From: a virus
Length of the DNA stretch: 38,735 nt
Virus record (IMG/VR): IMGVR_UViG_3300045996_003610
Coordinates: 1 to 38,735 of that record
Direction: 5' to 3' (one strand)
Under the pieces are notes generated by a model. The model ran no database searches. It saw only the letters and a program-made list of their open reading frames with translations, and was not told the origin of the DNA. Positions 1-16,272 of the stretch are shown here, piece by piece (the stretch's first letter is position 1; each line of letters starts with the position of its first letter). A program made the position numbers and the translations under genes.

Positions 1-58
1 CTCAGGTCCCCGACGCCCTCTTGGGTGGGGCAATCACCGACACGACAAGGAGGGCCTC

Positions 59-679
59 ATGGCGGACTATACCGGTACCCCCGGTGACGACTTTCACGCC
101 GGGACCGTCGCCGACGACACGATCAATGGGGAGGAGGGTAAGGATACGCTCGGCGGCGGACCGGGTAACGATAAAATTTTCGGCGGCCCCGGTGACGATG
201 TCCTGGACGGCGGCGAGGGCGTCGATCTCCTGGATGGCGGGGACGGCGACGACCTACTGAGTGGAGTTCGGCCTAGTGACGATGTCTTCGTTACCGGGGA
301 AGGGTCCGACCACATCTTCTGGCAGGTCGGCGACGGCAACAAGGAGATCGTCGATTTCGAGCCCGGCCTCGACATGATCGAGATCGCGTACACCGTGAAG
401 GTCCGGACGTTTGAGGACCTCGCTCCGTTCATCACGACCGAGGGGAACGACAGCCTGATCGACGTGGGGGCCGCCGACGGCAGGCCCCCAGGGACGCAGA
501 CCCTTTTTCTGTTCAACGTCCAGGACCTGCGGGCGAGGGATTTCTTGATCGACCCCGAAGCCCCGGACGCCGAAGCACCGGCGGTTTCTCCGGAGCCGCC
601 GGATCCTGGCTTCCCCATCGATCCCCCCGTCGATGTCGAGCAAGCCTCCGGGAGCCCGGACTGGCTGTTCAACCCGTAG
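59..679 (+). CDS. RTX calcium-binding repeat protein 1
   Basis: A 206-residue acidic protein. Residues about 5-75 carry glycine/aspartate nonapeptides of the RTX type (GGxGxDxLx, e.g. GGPGDDVLD, GGEGVDLLD, GGDGDDLLS), which in known families fold as a calcium-binding parallel beta-roll. A second module follows, with an IVDFEPGLDMIEI strand pattern (the D-x-I-x-D-F-x-x-G-x-D motif seen after serralysin-type repeats), then a DVGAADG...PGTQTLF segment and a proline-rich tail. The ATG is set by AGGAGG five bases upstream. No N-terminal signal peptide is visible; known RTX proteins use a C-terminal type I secretion signal, but no secretion genes are in the window. First of nine paralogues. The family is clear; its role in a phage is unknown. 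Confidence 0.85.
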   Translation: MADYTGTPGDDFHAGTVADDTINGEEGKDTLGGGPGNDKIFGGPGDDVLDGGEGVDLLDGGDGDDLLSGVRPSDDVFVTGEGSDHIFWQVGDGNKEIVDFEPGLDMIEIAYTVKVRTFEDLAPFITTEGNDSLIDVGAADGRPPGTQTLFLFNVQDLRARDFLIDPEAPDAEAPAVSPEPPDPGFPIDPPVDVEQASGSPDWLFNP

Positions 680-1045
680 CACGATAGGGATCCCGGACCC
701 GAGCCTCACCTCCCGTTCGACGACTTCGGGGTCGGTTGACCCGCTGGCACGAATTTCCCGCCACCAGCAGGAGACCCCCTCACGGTAAGGTTGACCCGAA
801 TTTGGCTCACCTGCAACCAAGTGTGACAATACCGCATCTATCAGAAATAGGATTAACATCAGCGATTAGCCGCTAGACACCTGAAATCCATGAAAGTAAT
901 CTCTGGTGATGTTGTGGTCGGATACTTCCGCCCGACCCCAGTTTCCCGGAGCATACAGAAACTACCGCCTCCGCTGGAGTGTGCGGACCCGGTGGGCTGC
1001 GATCCCGTGTGGTTTCTCACTGTGTAGCAGGACAGGAGACATGCC
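680..1045. other. intergenic region without a supported gene
   Basis: This 366-base stretch lies between the first two RTX genes. No reading frame with a ribosome-binding site and protein-like composition is seen on either strand. It ends in the GGAGAC ribosome-binding site of the next gene. It is less GC-rich in the middle (about 820-910). A TTGACC at about 801 has no convincing -10 partner. It could hold a promoter or a decayed RTX copy, but nothing decisive is visible. Confidence 0.4.
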
Positions 1046-1792
1046 ATGGATGAAGAGGACGATATCCTCGACGGCGATGAAACCGGCGGATCGGCTGATG
1101 ACGACGAACCGGACGATGACGACGGCCCACGCGACGGCGACGATGATCCTGTCCAGGATGGCCTGACCCCGACCGACGGCGACGACACCATCGCCGGAGG
1201 GCCGGAGCCCGACCGCATCAATGCCGGGGCGGGCGACGATGTGGTCAGTGGTGGTGCCGACCGCGACGAGTTGTCCGGCCAGGACGGGATGGACGCCCTG
1301 TACGGCGGACCGGACAAGGACGCCCTGAACGGCGGGGCGGACAACGACGACCTGTACGGCGGCGGGGACGATGACACTCTGTTCGGGGCAGCGGGCGATG
1401 ATGAGCTTTCCGGCGGGTCCCAGGACGACACGTCCTACGGTGGGCCGGGGGCCGATCAATTCATATTTGAGCCGGACGACGGCGATGACACCATCGGAGA
1501 CTTCGAAGTCGGCAAGGATACCCTCGTGTTTACGGGGTTTCCGCTCGACACAAAGATCTCGATTATCCCCTACTTTACGGGCGGTCCGGAGGGCTTCACG
1601 CAGACCGCCACAAATATCGAAGTGCCGAACGACTCGTTGAGCATCACGCTGACGGGCAGCCCAAAAGTGACCGCCAACGATGTCAAGGGCGTCGGGATCG
1701 CGGTTCCAACGCTCACCGGGGTCGGCGGGCTGCCACCGGATGACACCCTCGATGTCGTCGGAGTCCCACCGGGTGACACCGTCGAGGGGTAG
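1046..1792 (+). CDS. RTX calcium-binding repeat protein 2
   Basis: A 248-residue protein with the longest repeat block of the array. After a very acidic N-terminus (residues 1-45, mostly D, E and G) come roughly nine to ten consecutive nonapeptides over residues 50-140 (GGADRDELS, GGPDKDALN, GGADNDDLY, GGGDDDTLF and similar). The FIFEPDDGDDTIGDF-type capping strand and a GxDTLVFTGF segment follow. The C-terminus, about 90 residues, is rich in T, V, G and P. The start is chosen from GGAGAC upstream; the leader GGAGACATG(C/T)CATGG is nearly the same as that of the next gene, so both arose by duplication. Calcium binding is inferred from the repeats. No signal peptide. Confidence 0.85.
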   Translation: MDEEDDILDGDETGGSADDDEPDDDDGPRDGDDDPVQDGLTPTDGDDTIAGGPEPDRINAGAGDDVVSGGADRDELSGQDGMDALYGGPDKDALNGGADNDDLYGGGDDDTLFGAAGDDELSGGSQDDTSYGGPGADQFIFEPDDGDDTIGDFEVGKDTLVFTGFPLDTKISIIPYFTGGPEGFTQTATNIEVPNDSLSITLTGSPKVTANDVKGVGIAVPTLTGVGGLPPDDTLDVVGVPPGDTVEG

Positions 1793-1838
1793 GTCATCGC
1801 CGGACGGCGGCCTGGACAAGATCTAAAGGAGACATGTC

Positions 1839-2426
1839 ATGGATGAAGATGAAGTAATGCTCACCCCCGGCCCTACCGAGGCACCAAGCGGGATCTTCAC
1901 CGCGACCGGGACCCCGGACCGTGACGAACTGGTTGGCGGGCCGCACGGTGATACGTTCTCGGGAGCAGCCGGGAACGACTCGATCTACGGCTTCGGCGGG
2001 GGTGATGTAATCAACGGAGGCGACGGAGAAGACCTCATCGAAGGCGGTGACGGCGATGATGTAATCAACGGGGAGGCGGGTAACGATCATATCGAGAGCG
2101 GAAACGGTGACGACATTGTCGAGGGTGGGGGCGATCCTGATACCTTTGTGATTGAGCCGGGCGAGGGTAAGGACATCATTCTCGACTTTGAGGTCCACAA
2201 CGAAAACCAGGATACCATTATGCTTTTCGGCTTCCCCACTGGGCTGACGTATGACGATCATGTCGCCCCCGGCATCACATTCGATGATGGCAACGCCGTG
2301 ATCGACCTGTCAGCGTATTCCGGGACCGTCGATCTTCTCGGCCCCACCCCTCAAACGATCACGCTGGTCGGCGTCCCGTACGTGATCGATGATTTTTTCG
2401 ACATCAGGTCAGGCGTCCTCACTTGA
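1839..2426 (+). CDS. RTX calcium-binding repeat protein 3
   Basis: A 195-residue RTX paralogue. Six or so nonapeptides span residues 27-105 (GGPHGDTFS, GAAGNDSIY, GFGGGDVIN, GGDGEDLIE, GGDGDDVIN), followed by the capping pattern TFVIEPGEGKDIILDFE. The remaining 85 residues have the strand-rich pattern GF...GL.YDDHV, DLSAYSG and TITLVGVP. The start codon, the M-D-E-D beginning and the upstream GGAGACATGTC match the preceding gene closely, so the two share a duplicated 5' end. The gene sits 46 bases after its neighbour, consistent with co-transcription. No signal peptide or membrane segment. Confidence 0.83.
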   Translation: MDEDEVMLTPGPTEAPSGIFTATGTPDRDELVGGPHGDTFSGAAGNDSIYGFGGGDVINGGDGEDLIEGGDGDDVINGEAGNDHIESGNGDDIVEGGGDPDTFVIEPGEGKDIILDFEVHNENQDTIMLFGFPTGLTYDDHVAPGITFDDGNAVIDLSAYSGTVDLLGPTPQTITLVGVPYVIDDFFDIRSGVLT

Positions 2427-2465
2427 GGACGCGGCCCCGATCAAGCGGTACGTCACGAGGACACC

Positions 2466-3053
2466 ATGGCCCGGATCTACGGCAGCAATCATAACGACAA
2501 GCTGACCGGCACCGACGAGGACGACGTGCTCGCCGGCTACGGCGGCGACGATACGCTCACGGGCCGGGGAGACTACGATGTCTTTTATCCGGGCAGCGGC
2601 AACGACGAGGTGGTCCTGGGTCCCGAAGCGGATACCGTCGTGATCAACCCCGGCGGGGACCATGACACCATCCTCGACTTTCGATCCGGTACGCATGAAA
2701 TCGAGTTTATCGGCTTCACGAACCTCGATAGCCTGAGCGACCTGGAGCCGCACTTCAGCAGCGACCCGGAGACCGCCACTGTGAGTCTCGACGTATCGGC
2801 AGCCGACGGGCAAACCCCCGGTACCCAGACCCTGACGTTCCGGGGAGGCTTCGGGATCAACCCGCAGGAGGACATCGGGATATTCAAAGAGCCCCGCCTG
2901 GAGACTCCCCCACCAGAGCCGGACGGAAGTCTCGATATCGAAAACCTGGAGCGTCTGGGGCAGGAACCGACCGACTTCGGCCCGAGCGGCCCCATCGAAT
3001 CCGAGAACGTAGAGATCGCCGGGCTGGTACGGCCCCAATTCGATTTATCCTAG
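2466..3053 (+). CDS. RTX calcium-binding repeat protein 4
   Basis: A 195-residue paralogue with a shorter repeat block (residues 5-50: G-S-N-H-N-D-K-L-T, GTDEDDVLA, GYGGDDTLT, GRGDYDVFY). The conserved module follows: DTVVINPGGDHDTILDF, then FIGF, LEPHF, VSLDVSAADG.TPGTQTLTFR and a GI...DIGIF segment. This DVSAA-G-x-TPG-x-QTL module is shared by RTX proteins 1, 4, 5, 7, 8 and 9 and is as characteristic as the nonapeptides. The proline-rich tail from about residue 140 is unlike its neighbours. CACGAGGACACC precedes the ATG. Acidic, cytosolic by sequence, function unknown. Confidence 0.83.
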   Translation: MARIYGSNHNDKLTGTDEDDVLAGYGGDDTLTGRGDYDVFYPGSGNDEVVLGPEADTVVINPGGDHDTILDFRSGTHEIEFIGFTNLDSLSDLEPHFSSDPETATVSLDVSAADGQTPGTQTLTFRGGFGINPQEDIGIFKEPRLETPPPEPDGSLDIENLERLGQEPTDFGPSGPIESENVEIAGLVRPQFDLS

Positions 3054-3077
3054 GAGCCTACCCACTGGAGGACCATC

Positions 3078-3677
3078 ATGGCAACGTATATTCCCGGCAC
3101 AGACGACGACGACAACCTCGCCGGCACCCTGGGTGACGACATCATTGACGCCAAGGACGGGGCGGACGTTATCCAGGATCTTGAGGGCGACGATGTCGTC
3201 CAGCCGGGCGGCGGCGACGACCTTGTGGCACTCGGCCCTGGCCGCGATACGGTCGAGATCCGCCCCGACGAACGCAACGACATGATTCAAGGCTTCAAGT
3301 CCGGCGAGGATACCCTGAAGCTCAACGGCTTCGGCGACCTCAGCTACGCCGACCTGGAACTGCACTTCCGCAGCTATGACGACGCGGTACCCAAGGTCAG
3401 TCTCGACCTGGACGCCGCCGCGGGGACAACAAACCAGAACCTGCTGATCACCGGTGTCTCCGGGCTTGGCGAGGGTGACATCGTGTTCGCCAACGACCGC
3501 CTGGATGGTGGTAATCCCGACGATGAAGTGGCTGACATCGACCCCGCCGGCCCGTTCGATCCCAACCGGTTCGAGGTTGAGGAACCCGACCCCAGCCCGG
3601 ACATCGATCCGACCGCGACGGTGGATGATCTCGTGACCGTACCCGACCGGTCGTTCATGAGCGATTTGATGTTCTGA
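3078..3677 (+). CDS. RTX calcium-binding repeat protein 5
   Basis: A 199-residue paralogue, closely related to the ninth copy at 6249: both share an N-terminal IPGT...DDIIDA.. GAD.I.DLEG.DV.QPGGGDDL pattern, GPGRD.VEI and an identical GFGDLSYADLE segment. Repeats occupy residues 6-55; the capping module MIQGFKSGEDTLKLNGF is at about 75-92. The C-terminal third is proline- and acid-rich. A strong GGAGG lies upstream of the ATG. The similarity to copy nine, with four intact genes between them, points to duplication and dispersal inside the array rather than simple neighbour duplication. Confidence 0.83.
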   Translation: MATYIPGTDDDDNLAGTLGDDIIDAKDGADVIQDLEGDDVVQPGGGDDLVALGPGRDTVEIRPDERNDMIQGFKSGEDTLKLNGFGDLSYADLELHFRSYDDAVPKVSLDLDAAAGTTNQNLLITGVSGLGEGDIVFANDRLDGGNPDDEVADIDPAGPFDPNRFEVEEPDPSPDIDPTATVDDLVTVPDRSFMSDLMF

Positions 3678-3720
3678 TAGCTTCCGCCCGGTTGGTATCA
3701 ATGATTGTTATCCGGAGGCC

Positions 3721-3807
3721 ATGATGACGAGATTTGATGGATTTTCCGACACCAACAAAAGGCCCGACGAGCTTTGCGGAAGCCTTCTGGGGTTAGACAT
3801 TTTCTGA
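3721..3807 (+). pseudogene. truncated RTX-gene remnant or 27-28-residue peptide
   Basis: A short frame with its own GGAGG ribosome-binding site (3713-3717) and two ATG codons (3721 and 3724) ending at TGA 3805. The peptide begins M-T-R-F-D-G-F-S-D-T, which parallels the start of the next gene (M-A-T-F-E-G-I-S-D-S); similarity is then lost and the frame stops. The simplest reading is a broken duplicate 5' end of RTX protein 6. A genuine short peptide cannot be excluded because the ribosome-binding site is good. Confidence 0.45.
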
Positions 3808-3829
3808 GTAGTGATGACAGGAGACTCTG

Positions 3830-4324
3830 ATGGCAACTTTCGAGGGCATTTCCGACAGTGACGATGCCTTCCACCTCACACCCGAACCCGACACGGTGAC
3901 GATCAGCCGTGGCGGAAGTCACGATACTCTTTACGGGTTCGAAGCGGGGCAGGATACTCTGCTGCTGAGCACCTCCGACCCCGATGTGTTATTCGACGAC
4001 CTGGAGTGGAGCGAACCGGAACCCGGCACCCTGGTTGTCGATCTTTCGGCCCTGGGCGATGCCGAACCGGGCAGCGATACCGTGACGTTCCGGGACGGCA
4101 TCGGGGTAATCACCGACGCCGACCTGGAGTTCATCGACGACCCGCCCTTCCCGTTGGTTGCGGAGCCAATCCAGCCTTTCCGGGGGCCGGAACCACCCCT
4201 GTTTCCGGAACCATCCCCGTTTGAGGACCCGACCCGGTGGTGTGGCGACCTCTGCGTTCCGCCCCGCCCTGGCCCATTCTGGGACCCCGAGCCTATCAGA
4301 CCTCCGGACATCATCCTCGGTTAG
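3830..4324 (+). CDS. RTX-family protein 6, repeat-poor
   Basis: A 164-residue member of the array that has almost lost the nonapeptides: only S-D-S-D-D-A-F-H-L near the N-terminus recalls one. The conserved module is retained: DTVTISRGGSHDTLYGFEAGQDTLLLS, DLEW, VVDLSALGDAEPGSDTVTFR and a DADLEF segment. The tail is very proline-rich and includes two cysteines (W-C-G-D-L-C-V-P) not found in the other copies. GACAGGAGAC stands eight bases before the ATG. Classed with the array by its middle module; calcium binding is doubtful for this copy. Confidence 0.78.
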   Translation: MATFEGISDSDDAFHLTPEPDTVTISRGGSHDTLYGFEAGQDTLLLSTSDPDVLFDDLEWSEPEPGTLVVDLSALGDAEPGSDTVTFRDGIGVITDADLEFIDDPPFPLVAEPIQPFRGPEPPLFPEPSPFEDPTRWCGDLCVPPRPGPFWDPEPIRPPDIILG

Positions 4325-4384
4325 GTTTCGTCGAACTGCACCACCTCTGGGGATCTCGCAGAGGCCGCAACACAGGAGGCTACC

Positions 4385-4966
4385 ATGGCGATCTGGCCCG
4401 GAACCAACGGCAACGACATTCTGAGCGGCACCCAGGGAGATGATTACTTTACGCCGATCAAGGGCGACGACATCGTCAGTACCGGCCCTGGTCGCGACAG
4501 CGTCGAGATCGAACCCTACAGCGGCAACGATACCATTGTGGACTTCACGTCCGGCGAAGACACCCTGCTGATCAACTATTTCCCGACAATTGACAGCCCC
4601 GACGACGTGTACCCGTTTGTGGTCCACGACTCCGACAGGGGCATCACCACCATCGATGTGTCGGCCGCCGCGGCCGAAACCCCCGGCACGCTGGTCGTGA
4701 CCTTCCGCGAAAGCACCATGGTGCGGGCCGAGGACATTGGGGTCAACACCGGGGAGTTCTACGATCCCGACTATGTCCCGTACCCGCCGGACTGGCAACC
4801 GATCAACGCCGACGATTTCGGTCAAGCAGTCGGTACGACGACAACCTTGGACCAAGAGGTCTATATTCCACCAATTATCGATACCGGGGTTCACCCCCTG
4901 CCGGTCGAAATCACGCCCCACCTGATCGATGAAGGCACCCGCCTCAACCCGGTGCCGCCTGAGTAG
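4385..4966 (+). CDS. RTX-family protein 7
   Basis: A 193-residue paralogue with a short repeat block (residues 5-35) and then GPGRDSVEIEPYSGNDTI, DFTSGEDTLLINYFPTIDSPDDV, DVSAAAAETPGTLVVTFRE and the motif VNTGEFYDPDYVP. The same motifs in the same order occur in the next gene, so 7 and 8 are a recent tandem pair. CAGGAGGCTACC precedes the ATG. The C-terminal 55 residues are not repetitive and carry no signal peptide or membrane helix. Function unknown. Confidence 0.82.
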   Translation: MAIWPGTNGNDILSGTQGDDYFTPIKGDDIVSTGPGRDSVEIEPYSGNDTIVDFTSGEDTLLINYFPTIDSPDDVYPFVVHDSDRGITTIDVSAAAAETPGTLVVTFRESTMVRAEDIGVNTGEFYDPDYVPYPPDWQPINADDFGQAVGTTTTLDQEVYIPPIIDTGVHPLPVEITPHLIDEGTRLNPVPPE

Positions 4967-4996
4967 CGTCGGGTATTGAAACTGGAGGAACGCACC

Positions 4997-6046
4997 ATGG
5001 CTCGGATATCCGGTACTGACGGCAACGACACACTTCCCGACACCGAGGGCGACGACTACATCATGCCGGGCCGAGGCGATGATGCCATCACGCTCGGTCC
5101 CGGACGAGACAGCGTTGAGATCGAACCCTATGGCGGCAACGATGTGATCTTCGGGTTTACGTCGGGCGAAGACACTCTGTTGGTCAACTATTTCCCGACC
5201 ATCGACAGTCCGGATGACGTGACGCCATATATTATCAACCGCGAGGCGGACGCATCCATCGACCTGACGGCGGCAGCCGGAGGGAAGCCGGGGCCGCCAA
5301 CCATGATTTTTCGGGAGACCACGGGGATATTTCCTGGTGATCTGGGGGTCAACACGGGCGAGTTTTACGATCCCGACTACGTCCCGATCCCGCCACCCCC
5401 CGAACCGGTTAGGCCGGACCCGTTCGACGACTTCGTCCTCGGGACCGATGGAAACGACTTGGTCGGCTCTAATAATGCCATCGGTGTTGTCGTCGGTGAT
5501 GTCGCGGGTCGTGAATTCGAAGGTACTGGGGATCCGTCAACGGACGGCGACGACACCATCTACACGAAGGGCGGCCTGGATGCCATCTGGACACACAACG
5601 GCGATGACATCATATTGATAACGCCCGATTCGGGGTCCGTTTTCATCAAGGACTTCGACCCCAGTCGAGATGCTGTCGTGTTCAATGACTTCCCTTCGTT
5701 CGACAGTTTCGACGACCTGAAGTCGCCGTTTCTCGAAGTCGGCTCGTTCAGCAATCCAAACTATCCCGTCTCGATCTATCCGGGCGGCGGCTTCGGTCAC
5801 GACGGTGTCTTTGTCAACGTAGAATTCGCCTCCTATATGAGCGAAGACGAACTCACGCCCAACAATATCATGTTCAACCGACCGGTTCTGGACGTGGTCA
5901 CTCCAATTGATCCAGGGGGCAAATTACCGCCACGCCCCAGCGTCACCCTCACGGACGACATCAATCCGTCTGCCGTGCCGACCGATACCGAAATCACCGG
6001 CAGCTACTTCGACATCGCGGGGGTGGCTGATTTCGGTGACTTCTGA
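4997..6046 (+). CDS. RTX-family protein 8, two-module
   Basis: A 349-residue protein, the largest of the array. Residues 1-140 duplicate RTX protein 7 (GPGRDSVEIEPY, TSGEDTLLVNYFPTIDSPDDV, VNTGEFYDPDYVP). Residues about 150-290 hold a second, degenerate RTX module (DDFVLGTDGNDLVGS, TDGDDTIYTKGGLDAIWTHN, FIKDFDPSRDAVVF), followed by a unique tail. It therefore looks like a fusion of two array units. An in-frame ATG exists at 4976, but the TGGAGG at 4983-4988 only makes sense for the ATG at 4997, whose protein start (M-A-R-I) also matches its paralogues. Confidence 0.8.
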   Translation: MARISGTDGNDTLPDTEGDDYIMPGRGDDAITLGPGRDSVEIEPYGGNDVIFGFTSGEDTLLVNYFPTIDSPDDVTPYIINREADASIDLTAAAGGKPGPPTMIFRETTGIFPGDLGVNTGEFYDPDYVPIPPPPEPVRPDPFDDFVLGTDGNDLVGSNNAIGVVVGDVAGREFEGTGDPSTDGDDTIYTKGGLDAIWTHNGDDIILITPDSGSVFIKDFDPSRDAVVFNDFPSFDSFDDLKSPFLEVGSFSNPNYPVSIYPGGGFGHDGVFVNVEFASYMSEDELTPNNIMFNRPVLDVVTPIDPGGKLPPRPSVTLTDDINPSAVPTDTEITGSYFDIAGVADFGDF

Positions 6047-6248
6047 GAACGGGAGGCCCCTTACTACATCGTCGAGACCGACATCGTCGGAGATACACGC
6101 TGTGTGACCCATTTCACTGACAGGAGACTAAGCTTGATGGCAGAGTGACTGGGCTAGACGAAATGGCCTGTCGGGGGGGTCCCGCTCCCAGGGGGTATCA
6201 ACGACACGTCAAAGCGGGTTCTCCTCTCCATCAGGAAAACAGATCATC
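6047..6248. other. intergenic region with a vestigial gene start
   Basis: A gap between RTX proteins 8 and 9. It holds CTGACAGGAGAC, the same ribosome-binding site used by other array members, followed by ATG-GCA-GAG-TGA at 6137-6148, a start that stops after three codons. This resembles an RTX gene start cut off by deletion or mutation. Nothing else recognisable. Confidence 0.45.
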
Positions 6249-6887
6249 ATGGCAGCGATTCCAGGAACCGGGGGCGACGACGACCTCACGGGGACCCAGG
6301 GGGACGACATCATCGACGCCCAGGCCGGGGCGGACCGTATCCGGGACCTTGAGGGCAACGATGTCATCCAGCCCGGTGGTGGCGATGACCTGATTTATCT
6401 CGGCCCCGGTCGCGATGTTGTCGAGATCCACCCCAACGGCCGCGATGACCACATCCACGGCTTCAAGGCCGGCGAGGACACCCTCAAGTTCAACGGCTTC
6501 GGCGACCTCAGCTACGCGGACCTGGAACCTCACTTCCAAAGCAATCCGGGCGTCAGTGTCGGCCTGGACGTGTCGGCCGCCGCGGGCGGAACGCCGGGAG
6601 ACCAGACCCTGCTGTTCCTCGATACCTTCGGGCTCGGTGAGGCCGAGATCGTGTTCGCCAACGACCCCCTGATTGGCGACAATCCCCCGACCGAGACGGA
6701 TCTGGTCATTACTCCCATCGTGCCTCCTGACGACCGGCTCGATACCTCCGTGTTCATCCCCATCATCGGGTACCGCGATCCGAGCAGTTATGGATTCGCC
6801 GAGGAACCGCCTCCCGCCCCTCCTCCCCCTCTGCCCGCTGACTGCAACCTGTGCAACGATGTGGTTTTGGTCCCCGCCTGGGACTGA
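6249..6887 (+). CDS. RTX calcium-binding repeat protein 9
   Basis: A 212-residue paralogue. Repeats occupy residues 5-55 (GTGGDDDLT, GTQGDDIID, LEGNDVIQP, GGGDDLIYL), then GPGRDVVEIHP, GFKAGEDTLKFNGFGDLSYADLE, GLDVSAAAGGTPGDQTLLF and EIVFANDPL. It is the close sister of copy 5. The tail is strongly proline-rich (a P/A stretch near residue 190) and has a C-N-L-C pair. The ATG lies after the AT-rich stretch AAAACAGATCATC with only a weak ribosome-binding site, in contrast to most array members. Last gene of the array, 50 bases before a lipoprotein gene on the same strand. Confidence 0.83.
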   Translation: MAAIPGTGGDDDLTGTQGDDIIDAQAGADRIRDLEGNDVIQPGGGDDLIYLGPGRDVVEIHPNGRDDHIHGFKAGEDTLKFNGFGDLSYADLEPHFQSNPGVSVGLDVSAAAGGTPGDQTLLFLDTFGLGEAEIVFANDPLIGDNPPTETDLVITPIVPPDDRLDTSVFIPIIGYRDPSSYGFAEEPPPAPPPPLPADCNLCNDVVLVPAWD

Positions 6888-6937
6888 ACGGAACCTCGTG
6901 GTGTTGAAGGAAAGCCGTTACCGACCGAGGAACCTCA

Positions 6938-7318
6938 ATGCCACGACTCCCCTGCCTTGCCATCCTGCTGGTGACCACCGCCTGTCAGGCGGTCGCCCCG
7001 GCCCTCCAGCCGGCCACCCCCGCCCCCGCTCCCGATCCCGCGGTCACCTGGAGCGGCATCAGCGATAACTCGGCCCAGTGCCCGGCGATTTCCTTCGAAC
7101 TGGTCCAGAAGGAGCGGATGCTGGAGGGCTGGGCCTCGGGAGCGGGCGGCGAACGGCTGCTGAGCGAAGTCAGGGGCGTGGTCGAGGGAACCGACATTCG
7201 GCTGGCGGTGGACCGGACCGTCTGGACCGGCCGCCACGGCGGCTACGGCATCACGCTGCACGAGCCGTCCGGCTGCCAGCGGACGGTGGTCCTGGCCCGT
7301 GAAGTAACGGGTGGATGA
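6938..7318 (+). CDS. small lipoprotein A
   Basis: A 126-residue protein with a short hydrophobic signal sequence (residues 2-15) ending in T-T-A-C16, a fair lipobox, so probably a lipid-anchored envelope protein. The mature part has W-x-G near residue 35, a CPAI/CPAL cysteine, a GW strand, a LAV...WTG motif and a C-terminal EPSGCQR. All of these recur in lipoprotein B at 7838, so the two are paralogues with two conserved cysteines that could form a disulphide. GAGG is seven bases upstream of the ATG. Some phage lipoproteins block superinfecting phages at the envelope (T5 Llp is an example), but nothing here proves that role. Confidence 0.72.
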   Translation: MPRLPCLAILLVTTACQAVAPALQPATPAPAPDPAVTWSGISDNSAQCPAISFELVQKERMLEGWASGAGGERLLSEVRGVVEGTDIRLAVDRTVWTGRHGGYGITLHEPSGCQRTVVLAREVTGG

Positions 7319-7837
7319 ACAAAATTATGACCCCGCGATCCCTAGGTTTCCGCGTCGAAGGGGTCGCGAGGCCAGTCAAAGGGGCATGGTGGCGGTTCTT
7401 CTTGTTCGGCACTGAAACCGACCGACCAGCGTCCCGCCCCCAGGGAAGAGGGTGAGACAACTCAAGACTGCATCAGGGCGGCTGTGTCGTCAATTCCCCC
7501 TCCGTACGGCACCCTTTGGCTCACCCGGTGCCGGATCACGGGATCGATCCGGCGTTCATACCCCCGCAGGAGGGGGTGGTCATTAGCCCGCTCCAAGGGT
7601 CTGTAGCCATCGTATCCCCGGCGGGGATTGCGTGTGTGTCCGGAAAGGACCTGATCATGGGTCTCTTCCTGTCATACCCCCTGCGGGGGTGCGGTTCCCG
7701 GTATCGGTCAACCTCTCACCGAAGCTATCATACCCCCGGTCCAGGGGTGAGCGATCATCGGGCCGGCGGGTCGGGAACTCAACCGTGTCGATGGGCTTTG
7801 CCATCTCGAATTACGATTTAATCAGGAAGTGAGCACC
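7319..7837. repeat. non-coding leader with a series of C-run/G-run hairpins
   Basis: A 519-base region between two lipoprotein genes with no supported reading frame. It contains four short inverted repeats of one type: ACCCCC 7560-7565 with GGGGGT 7572-7577, ATCCCC 7614-7619 with GGGGAT 7623-7628, ACCCCC 7676-7681 with GGGGGT 7685-7690, and ACCCC 7732-7736 with GGGGT 7744-7748. Three of the four are preceded by CAT. They are spaced 54, 62 and 56 bases apart. A looser GACCCC/GGGGTC pair is at 7329-7365. The sequences between them are unrelated. The units could be protein-binding sites or RNA hairpins in the leader of lipoprotein B. Confidence 0.5.
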
Positions 7838-8224
7838 ATGCCGTCCAACCGCGTCCCACATCTCGCCGCCCTGCTGGCCCTGCTCCTGGCCGGGTGCCAG
7901 GGCGTCGGTGGCCCGGCCGGCGGGATCTCGCCGGTCCGGAGCGACACGCGGGTCATCGGCTCCTGGAACGGCCGGAGCACCCAGGGAGACGGCTGTCCCG
8001 CCCTGCTGTTCGCCCTGATGATGCACGAGGACGGCCGGGTGGCGGGCTGGGTCCAGGAGGCCACCAACCGGGATCGGCTTCAGGAAATCTCCGGGATCGT
8101 TGATCAGGACAAGGCCATCCTGGCGGTCGGCAGTTCGCTTTGGACCGGGGTCAAGGCCGACGACCAGATCGCCCTGGTGGAGCCTGCCGGGTGCCGGCGG
8201 CGGATCGTGATGTCGCGGTCCTGA
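7838..8224 (+). CDS. small lipoprotein B
   Basis: A 128-residue protein with a textbook lipoprotein signal: hydrophobic residues 9-18 followed by L-L-A-G-C20. The mature domain aligns with lipoprotein A by eye: W-N-G-R-S, G-C-P-A-L-L-F-A-L, G-W, R-L-x-E-I-x-G-I-V, L-A-V...W-T-G, then E-P-A-G-C-R-R-R-I-V. The conserved cysteine pair suggests a small disulphide-bonded beta domain facing the periplasm. The ATG at 7838 is preferred over the GTG at 7829 because AGGAAG lies eight bases before the ATG but touches the GTG. The upstream 0.5-kb leader is unusually long for this genome. Confidence 0.72.
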   Translation: MPSNRVPHLAALLALLLAGCQGVGGPAGGISPVRSDTRVIGSWNGRSTQGDGCPALLFALMMHEDGRVAGWVQEATNRDRLQEISGIVDQDKAILAVGSSLWTGVKADDQIALVEPAGCRRRIVMSRS

Positions 8225-8236
8225 CCGGAGTTCTCC

Positions 8237-8345
8237 AAAAAAGAAGGCCCGCGGTAATCCAGCGGGCCTCTAGTTTGACAAGGAGGAAACACACACCAAA
8301 GTGCTGAGACGGAAGATAGTTCCAAACAGTTAATAAGAGATGAAC
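8237..8345 (-). ncRNA. putative small RNA, unit 3 of tandem array
   Basis: Read on the minus strand, this unit ends in an intrinsic terminator: stem GGCCCGC/GCGGGCC (8246-8268) followed by TTCTTTTTT. Thirteen bases before the stem is GTTTCCTCC (complement of 8282-8290), able to pair with a GGAGGAAAC ribosome-binding site. Upstream are a small GGAA-CTATC-TTCC hairpin and an ATTAAC block that align with unit 1. The T-run follows the stem only on the minus strand, which sets the direction. The 5' end is not defined by the sequence; the bounds are approximate. Confidence 0.5.
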
Positions 8346-8362
8346 AAGTTCGGTATTCGGGC

Positions 8363-8475
8363 AAAAAAGAAGGCCCGCGGTGATCCGGCGGGCCTTGCAG
8401 TTCAGGGAGGAAACGCGAGAGGCATCCGACCGGATCGCGTCGAAGCCGGACTGTAGACCCCCCGCGTTAACAAAA
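8363..8475 (-). ncRNA. putative small RNA, unit 2 of tandem array
   Basis: This unit has the same layout as its neighbours: terminator stem 8372-8394 (extended by AA/TT) followed on the minus strand by TTCTTTTTT, GTTTCCTCC as the complement of 8406-8414, and GTTAAC (8466-8471) about 50 bases further upstream. The middle part is more diverged than units 1 and 3, while the terminator and the CCTCC block are nearly unchanged, which suggests selection on those two parts. No open frame with a start codon follows the plus-strand GGAGGAAAC, so it is not simply a ribosome-binding site. Confidence 0.5.
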
Positions 8476-8549
8476 CAATAACACCCGCGTACTTTTCTGT
8501 GTTCCATAACGGTCCCGCGAAAAAACGTCCCGGCGGCACCCCGGCGGAC

Positions 8550-8664
8550 AAAAAAAAGGCCCGCGGTAATCCGGCGGGCCTTTCAAGTCTAGGGAGGAAA
8601 CGCCCAATGAAGTGCGTAACGGCAAGCTATCCGAAGATAGTTACCAGACCGTTAACGCACTGCA
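8550..8664 (-). ncRNA. putative small RNA, unit 1 of tandem array
   Basis: This is the best-formed unit. On the minus strand it starts with a long imperfect stem (8611-8622 with 8649-8661) enclosing a seven-pair stem (8625-8631 with 8636-8642) closed by a C-UUCG-G tetraloop, the highly stable form that exists only on this strand. Then comes CGTTTCCTCCC (complement of 8592-8602), then a terminator stem with AAA/TTT extensions (8555-8583) and a run of T. It lies about 40 bases after the stop of the minus-strand gene at 8705, so it could be made from its own promoter or cut from that gene's 3' end. Confidence 0.55.
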
Positions 8665-8704: not shown

Positions 8705-9262
8705 TCACGCGGTCATCGCGGTCAGGACGCCCTGGAGATGCTGGATTCTCTCCTCGACGGCCTGCCGCATCGCCTCTTTGTCCTCCTCGGCCACCGTTTC
8801 GAGGAACGACAGCACGTGGGGCATCGGGGCGGAGAACACGATATCGATCTGGCGGTTGACCACCTCGCCGTGCCACTCGCCGTGATACACCACGATACAG
8901 CCGGTGCGGTCCAGGATCCCGCCGATCAGGCTGTAGGTCAGGCCGCCGGTGTCGTGGGCCGCCGGCAGGTAGCGGAACAGGCCGACCGGGGCGGAGCGAA
9001 GCACCTCGGCGACGTAAGCCAGGGCCGGCAGGTGGTAGTTCTCGCCCTCGGCCGCCGCGATGCCGCAGGCCGCCAGGGTTTGGTCGGTGATCGGCGGGAT
9101 CCGCAGGCCGTTGACGGTGGTCGCGGGATGGATGTCCTCGCCCGGCCACGCCAGGGCGACCCTGGCGGTGCCCCAGCGGCCCGTCGCCTCGTACTCGTCC
9201 TCGACCCCGTCCACCGGATGGAAGGTCACATCCCGGATTGTGATGGTGCTCTGCTCTGTCAT
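8705..9262 (-). CDS. hypothetical protein, 185 residues
   Basis: A soluble acidic protein I do not recognise. It has mixed alpha/beta character: an N-terminal strand-rich part (TITIRDVTFHPVDG, TARVALAWPG), a central segment with G-E-N-Y-H-L-P-A-L-A-Y, a G-C-I-V-V-Y-H-G-E-W-H-G-E motif at about residue 122 that could be a ligand site, and a C-terminal helical part ending in a coiled-coil-like stretch rich in E and Q. No signal peptide or membrane helix. The start is ATG with AGAGG about ten bases upstream. Its stop is followed by the small-RNA array, whose first terminator could also end this transcript. Confidence 0.6.
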   Translation of the reverse strand: MTEQSTITIRDVTFHPVDGVEDEYEATGRWGTARVALAWPGEDIHPATTVNGLRIPPITDQTLAACGIAAAEGENYHLPALAYVAEVLRSAPVGLFRYLPAAHDTGGLTYSLIGGILDRTGCIVVYHGEWHGEVVNRQIDIVFSAPMPHVLSFLETVAEEDKEAMRQAVEERIQHLQGVLTAMTA

Positions 9263-15225: not shown

Positions 15226-16272
15226 TCAGAAATCGGTATCGTCGAGGCGGACTTCGCCCGCGATGCCGATCTGGTAGTTGGTCGGCCGCCGCTCGAAGAA
15301 GTTGGTCAGCGGGTCGAGATCCTGGAAATCCATGAACGGGAAGTTGTTCTTGCCGCCGAAGCGGAACTTGATCCCGAGCCGGCCGAGCCGCTGGTCGGCA
15401 CAGAACTTCAGGTACGACTCCATGTCGGCGGGCGACAACCCGGCGACCCCGAGCGACAGGGTCTCATTGGCGAACTGCATCTCGGCCGATATCGCCTCGG
15501 TCAGCATCGCGACGATCTCGCCCTCCATCCGGGCGTCCCAGAGGTGCGGGTACTGCTCCTTGACGACATCGACGAGGTCGAAGGCGACCTCCATGTGCAT
15601 GCTCTCGTCGCGGAACACCCAGTTGGTGATGTCGCCGAGGCCGTTCAGGACGCCTTTGGCCCTGAGGTAGTAAACGTAGGCGAAGGCCCCGTAGAAGAAC
15701 AACCCCTCGACCGCCGCCGCGAAGGTGATGAGGTTGAGCAGGAAGGTCCGCTTCTTCTCGTCATCGTCGAGGGTGTCGATTTCGTCCATCGCGTCCATCC
15801 ACTTGAAGCAGAAGTCCGCCTTGGTCTTGATCGAGGGAATGTTGTTGATCGCGGCAAACGCCTCGAACCGGTCCTGCATGTCCGGCAGGTAGTTGTCGAG
15901 CAGCGTCAGGTAAGCCTGGATGTGGAGGCTTTCCTCGAAGATCTGCCGGCCCATGTACATCCGGTACTCGGGCGAATTGACGTGCTTGTACAGGGTCAGG
16001 CAGGCGTTGTTGGCGACGACCGTATCGCCCGTCGCGAAGAAGGCGATGATGCGGCGGACGACGTGAAGCTCGGCCGGACTCAGCTTGTCCCGCAGATCGG
16101 CAACATCGGTCGAGAAGCTGACTTCCTGGACGGTCCAGGTGTTCTTCTGGGCGTTGATGAAGTGATCGTAGAACTGCGGGTAGAGCATCGGCCGCAGCGT
16201 CAGGGCGAAGCCTGGGTTCAGGATGCCCGTCTCGCCGGTGTTGTCCACGGTGTAGCTGTCGGTCGTTGCCAT
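15226..16272 (-). CDS. nrdB: ribonucleotide reductase class Ia, beta subunit
   Basis: A 348-residue R2 subunit; it makes the tyrosyl radical used by NrdA to reduce ribonucleoside diphosphates. The di-iron ligands can be placed: D83, E114 with H117 (E-S-L-H), E189 (V-E-G-L-F-F-Y) and E223 with H226 (E-S-M-H). The radical tyrosine is Y121, four residues after H117, as in E. coli NrdB (H118/Y122). Length is typical. The C-terminus ends in acidic residues and F, as expected for the tail that docks on NrdA. It follows nrdA and a mazG-like gene in one leftward run. Confidence 0.95.
   Translation of the reverse strand: MATTDSYTVDNTGETGILNPGFALTLRPMLYPQFYDHFINAQKNTWTVQEVSFSTDVADLRDKLSPAELHVVRRIIAFFATGDTVVANNACLTLYKHVNSPEYRMYMGRQIFEESLHIQAYLTLLDNYLPDMQDRFEAFAAINNIPSIKTKADFCFKWMDAMDEIDTLDDDEKKRTFLLNLITFAAAVEGLFFYGAFAYVYYLRAKGVLNGLGDITNWVFRDESMHMEVAFDLVDVVKEQYPHLWDARMEGEIVAMLTEAISAEMQFANETLSLGVAGLSPADMESYLKFCADQRLGRLGIKFRFGGKNNFPFMDFQDLDPLTNFFERRPTNYQIGIAGEVRLDDTDF

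Follow-up and report, generated by a model that had tools for sequence, protein, structure and literature searches.

We analyzed the window, the whole 38,735-nucleotide stretch of the linear virus contig IMGVR_UViG_3300045996_003610 (38.7 kb, 64% GC), and identified three tandem small RNA (sRNA) genes of the alpha-r8 family on its minus strand. We consider it probable, at roughly 0.6, that these genes add alpha-r8 dosage to repress host mRNAs at their Shine-Dalgarno (SD) regions via the host's Hfq. In the direction of transcription the trio comprises unit A (~8550-8663), unit B (8363-8471) and the more diverged unit C (8237-8334), all with putative 5' ends. The sequence was analyzed using Infernal against Rfam 15, in which RF00519 has a gathering score of 41 bits. 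Unit A gave the best match of the trio (56.5 bits, E 3.6e-9, 8543-8622), unit B scored 43.2 bits (8357-8430), above the gathering score, and unit C scored 39.1 bits (8231-8311), just below it. By sequence, the trio is thus RF00519 (suhB, 'Makes More Granules Regulator RNA'; the MmgR/SisA type, alpha-r8). A sequence-only reading of this DNA had described three minus-strand units with an anti-SD motif; all of the features that it gave were present, and the RF00519 matches lay at each unit on the same strand.

The published alpha-r8 signature consists of a terminator and a single-stranded 5'-UUUCCUCCCU-3' (PMC12559287), a core common to the published members, MmgR and Caulobacter SisA-D (PMC12559287). 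This signature was exact in units A and B, where the family 10-mer UUUCCUCCCU occupies 8591-8600 and 8404-8413 of the minus strand, while the core of unit C (UUUCCUCCUU, 8280-8289, minus) matched 9 out of the 10 positions. Every unit contained GUUUCCUCC 5' of a near-identical terminator, and the spacing of 11-13 nt noted earlier was borne out at 12 nt in A, 11 nt in B and 13 nt in C. The string GTTTCCTCC was located at 8601-8593, 8414-8406 and 8290-8282 (all minus); these three were its total in the window, against 0.46 expected, and a count of three was reached in 1 of 100 shuffles. Directly 3' of each core was a Rho-independent terminator, predicted from sequence and fold at 8550-8583 (with a U8 tail), 8363-8396 and 8237-8270 on the minus strand. 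The stems, GGCCCGC(C/T)GGAT(T/C)ACCGCGGGCC, were located at 8580-8558, 8394-8372 and 8268-8246, and the T-runs, ending at 8550, 8363 and 8237, were found on the minus strand only, as had been claimed. The unit A terminator is followed by another hairpin that looks like a terminator (GTCCGCCGGGGTGCCGCCGGGAC, then GTTTTTTC), at 8519-8545 on the same strand.

The predicted folds left the core mostly unpaired and the terminator strong in all three units, with z-scores of -5.1 for A (110 nt, 8551-8660), -2.8 for B (104 nt, 8364-8467) and -2.3 for C (104 nt). The family has a weak hairpin 5' of the core; this 5' hairpin was longer and strong in A and B and poor in C. In unit A it is predicted to run on the minus strand from 8660 to 8612 (GUGCGUUAACGG...CCGUUACGCAC) with an inner CUAUC-UUCG-GAUAG, and in unit B it is predicted at 8413-8467 (minus). 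The UUCG hairpin that the earlier reading had seen on the minus strand alone was real (~8639-8626), the plus strand being able to form the identical stem, but with a CGAA loop.

A GTTAAC or ATTAAC block was confirmed upstream of the core in each unit (minus strand, 8656-8651 in A, 8471-8466 in B and 8334-8329 in C), at a distance of ~40-50 nt. One TTAAC block per unit is not attributable to chance, since the two strands of the window together hold only 15 copies of TTAAC. The block is a putative promoter or 5'-end element, and before these sRNAs it may be a phage promoter element. GTTAAC also precedes the gene for the small subunit of ribonucleotide reductase by ~50 nt (16326-16321, minus), and CtrA box variants (TTAA-N7-TTAA) can likewise be read at the block. 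Sigma-70 promoters were sought ahead of units A-C, and none was recognised. Unit A contains TTGCAGTGCG at 8665-8656, and in several bacterial alpha-r8 copies TTGCAGTGCG or a variant of it directly follows a -10-like box, which suggests that unit A starts near 8663. As to the origin of the trio, its terminators are near-identical whereas the terminator arms of the family differ widely (43 distinct 5' arms among 65 stems), which points to local duplication.

The earlier reading had likened the units to the 'cuckoo' RNAs (CcsR) of Rhodobacter, which are also tandem alphaproteobacterial sRNAs with C-rich anti-SD motifs. We rejected this identity: the cuckoo motif CCUCCUCCC was absent, the units reading GUUUCCUCC(C/U) in its place, and Rfam put all three in RF00519. 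A further defining feature of the CcsR/cuckoo RNAs is that they follow a small gene of the DUF1127/CcaF1 type. No such gene was found ahead of the trio; the 185-aa gene at 8705-9262 (minus), which ends ~40 nt before unit A, had no Pfam or PHROG match. AbcR (alpha-r15) and NfeR1 (alpha-r14) resemble the trio as alphaproteobacterial trans-acting anti-SD sRNAs, but they are reported with two or three anti-SD motifs, and no match to their Rfam families was listed at the trio region at E up to 1. The alpha-r8 RNAs, represented by MmgR of Sinorhizobium meliloti and SisA-D of Caulobacter, share with the trio the UUUCCUCCCU core and the Rho-independent terminator; their 5' hairpin is weak or variable, and multiple and tandem copies are also known in bacteria. 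The trio differs from them in being three copies on a phage record, in the longer 5' hairpins of A and B and in the one altered base of the unit C core, and it does not adjoin an N-formylglutamate amidohydrolase gene, as bacterial alpha-r8 usually does.

The units had also been taken for a family of the phage's own, and this did not hold, as alpha-r8 is a widespread alphaproteobacterial family carried by many phages. It was present in 81 of the 142 genomes of the class containing Stella, in 65 of these over the cut-off. One bacterial genome (G184) has its own chromosomal tandem alpha-r8 trio (C7:54432-55030), which means that the phage is not alone in having a tandem layout. Alpha-r8-like sequences were also seen on many alphaproteobacterial plasmids (Azospirillum, Methylobacterium, Bradyrhizobium), and the RNA may therefore be mobile beyond phages.

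The DnaB of the window was closest to those of Agrobacterium phage Atu_ph07 (490 kb, 49% identity) and Sinorhizobium phage Phosso (469 kb, 46%), and its virion protein matched Phosso weakly. Further genes in the window code for the two subunits of ribonucleotide reductase, a MazG-like protein, a tail-spike-like protein and a PAAR-domain endolysin. Because of these matches and this gene content, the window is probably a fragment of a large alphaproteobacterial phage. The covariance search that had been proposed for related phages and alphaproteobacterial genomes was successful in the genomes and in other phages; RF00519 was absent from Atu_ph07, from Phosso and from 50 IMG/VR DnaB relatives, many of them fragments and all at 49% identity or less, and among these relatives of the window phage the trio was not found. 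IMG/VR searches with the virion protein, the 8705-9262 protein and a PcfJ-like protein found no relatives, while the search with an RTX protein gave one weak relative. To the left of the trio, nine RTX (hemolysin-type calcium-binding repeat) genes lie in a row on the plus strand (59-6887), and a small lipoprotein-like gene without a PHROG match (7838-8224, plus; an open reading frame) follows unit C in convergent orientation. A tblastn search with one RTX gene against phage and plasmid collections gave no match.

Together with Hfq, SisA represses mRNAs at their ribosome-binding sites (PMC12559287), and its core pairs with the mRNA of the TonB receptor CCNA_03574 at the start region, as shown by the compensatory mutants C40G/G-6C (PMC12559287). 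Since their core and terminator are the same as those of SisA, units A-C most likely act likewise on host mRNAs. We infer that each unit would be transcribed into an RNA of ~100-115 nt in which a 5' hairpin is followed by the exposed core UUUCCUCC(C/U)U and then by a terminator with a U-tail. In infection these RNAs would bind the Hfq of the host and work with it in the manner of SisA, and the core would pair with the SD region of host target mRNAs and repress their translation. The trio would thereby supplement or override the host's own alpha-r8 dosage, presumably to the benefit of the phage. Likely outputs are nutrient uptake and possibly phage receptors, because the known alpha-r8 targets include TonB-dependent receptors.

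The RNAs could instead time or dampen the phage's own genes, for example the RTX cluster. By inspection, a GGAG-type SD precedes most RTX genes, and the sites of many phage genes on the minus strand are weaker; the RTX gene at 4997, which the earlier reading had singled out, has GGAGGAAC. However, the predicted pairing of this gene with unit A (-12.3 kcal/mol) fell within the background of random segments, and the target prediction on the 43 start regions, which covers the window's genes only and hence a fragment of the phage, gave a mean of -9.6 kcal/mol against -9.3 (sd 3.4) for random window segments, and the RTX starts did not stand out. We therefore regard such self-regulation as quite improbable, and the lack of enrichment at the window's start regions weakly favours host targets. 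Of the sequence-only reading as a whole, the minus-strand anti-SD sRNA genes, which are probably translation repressors, were upheld, while the family, the phage-private status and the RTX target were not. The reading had further suggested that host regulators are titrated, which is possible since the sponge RNA CrfA of Caulobacter targets exactly this motif (PMC12559287). CrfA pairs with the alpha-r8 core and removes SisA, and the inhibition is mutual and largely Hfq-dependent (PMC12559287), so that the phage RNAs might mainly soak up a CrfA-type sponge or Hfq and keep the host's alpha-r8 active. Three tandem copies would raise the dosage of such a decoy, and phage RNAs acting on host sRNAs are known, namely AsxR and AgvB of E. 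coli phages (PMC7873438). These anti-sRNAs are likewise phage-borne and rewire host sRNA networks, but they oppose host sRNAs whereas the trio copies a host sRNA family. CrfA itself was described in Caulobacter, and action on mRNAs fits the same RNAs equally well; on balance a role mainly as decoy seems unlikely.

Units that merely terminate the 8705-9262 transcript, with the core as a fossil of host sRNA genes, would be in keeping with the same-strand gene directly upstream, the facing convergent gene and the fact that the terminators are the best kept part. Yet a single terminator would be enough for this purpose, and the core, intact at every position in A and B, retains 9 of 10 in C, next to strong 5' hairpins in A and B, which makes this explanation very improbable. 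The trio might alternatively lie in bacterial DNA joined to the phage, as a host flank or through a chimeric assembly. The genes to its left (the RTX run and two small lipoprotein-like genes) had no phage match, tetranucleotide use in 1-8200 correlated with the rest of the window at r 0.79 as compared to 0.89-0.95 for controls, and a chromosomal trio does exist in G184. On the other hand, RTX repeats bias composition and the segment 8001-12000 deviated just as much (r 0.79). The record is classed as viral, the window has no tRNA and there was no integrase among the proteins searched, the nearest DnaB relatives are large phages, and complete phage genomes also carry alpha-r8. We give a bacterial origin of this segment only a small chance, and favour alpha-r8 genes of the phage that would repress host mRNAs.

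Alpha-r8 recurs in other phages, with RF00519 matches in five named phage records. Among the Bradyrhizobium phages, ppBeUSDA76-1 scored 62.8 bits, while ppBdUSDA122-1 (32.0 bits) and BDU-MI-1 (37.0 bits) remained below the cut-off. Two recorded Microcystis phages, PP395640.1 (62.8 bits) and OM681334.1 (47.0 bits), were over it; since the family is alphaproteobacterial, their host assignment may be wrong, for example if the culture contained an accompanying alphaproteobacterium. RF00519 was matched at E <= 0.001 in 48/48 IMG/VR contigs, 33 of them over the cut-off, these contigs having been picked by core pattern and terminator and thus selected by construction. When records were instead collected with the HNH protein of ppBeUSDA76-1 and no use of the core, 17/50 had RF00519 (12 over the cut-off). 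The terminator arms of the phage-contig copies covary: when arms were swapped between copies, 0.528 of positions paired as compared to 0.948 for a copy's own arms. Terminators were detected at 78/119 pattern sites with the stricter pattern and at 13/119 with the first, looser one, and at 23/936 GGCC-anchored background sites. A search of the open-licence PMC literature for the family together with phage or prophage found no report of phage-borne alpha-r8. The sRNA family is already known; what appears to be new is alpha-r8 in phages at large, the amplified trio and the order NusG-like gene, alpha-r8, terminase.

This last arrangement was observed as a recurrent module in temperate alphaproteobacterial phages, in which a NusG-like antiterminator gene is followed by alpha-r8 and then HNH/terminase, and it is a possible late-operon leader. 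In ppBeUSDA76-1, which has an integrase gene, alpha-r8 (16066-16146) lies between an 'ABC-transporter' gene and HNH-terminase. The product of the former (WAX24340.1, 4963-5640 of locus L242), annotated as an ABC transporter substrate-binding protein, matches NusG PF02357 and phrog_6386 and is probably misannotated. Four NusG-like proteins were tested; PF02357 was above the cut-off in two and just below it in two, and all four matched phrog_6386, 'transcription antiterminator'. At 27 of the 31 NusG-like gene loci a same-strand TTTCCTCCC was located <=1.5 kb downstream, mostly at ~120-320 nt, while none was listed on the opposite strand. In the HNH-seeded set, the core was present at 13/17 loci with a NusG-like gene vs 3/34 without one (Fisher p 2e-6, a value that overstates independence because the loci share descent). 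The commonest annotated downstream neighbour of alpha-r8 was the terminase large subunit; other phage copies lie elsewhere, for example directly behind the major head protein gene at two loci (L144 and L173).

StxS is an Hfq-bound sRNA that is made from the terminated PR'-tR' transcript and blocks the stx1B ribosome-binding site (PMC7873438). The temperate-phage alpha-r8 resembles StxS and the lambda late leader in being a short RNA with a terminator, placed after an antiterminator gene and ahead of the late operon, but the sequences are unrelated and a NusG-like protein takes the place of Q. By this analogy, the NusG-like antiterminator would read through the alpha-r8 terminator and so activate the HNH/terminase genes and those for structural proteins, while the terminated alpha-r8 RNA would reprogram host translation in the meantime, as StxS does. 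The window trio does not lie between an antiterminator gene and late genes. A tentative extension, which we hold to be possible rather than probable, is that alpha-r8 is standard in alphaproteobacterial phages and serves as a late-operon leader in the temperate ones, the window trio being an amplified, free-standing version. From this arrangement comes a testable, concrete model of how rhizobial phages control their late genes; lysogens of such phages have been sequenced, e.g., Bradyrhizobium elkanii USDA 76. Alpha-r8 RNAs are known to regulate carbon storage and the uptake of nutrients in bacteria. Should many alphaproteobacterial phages have copies of their own, part of the host alpha-r8 regulon would be exposed to viral control, and some bacterial alpha-r8 paralogues may then be phage-derived.

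We noted that 8 of the 15 alpha-r8 copies adjoining NusG-like genes contain GCGGTAGCG, a sequence that resembles the RfaH ops element of E. coli and lies ~38 nt upstream of the core. We do not claim an ops-like role for it, given that it is located within the 5' hairpin and occurs in one bacterial-assembly copy (L397) as well; GCGGTAGCG may be only a trace of ancestry.
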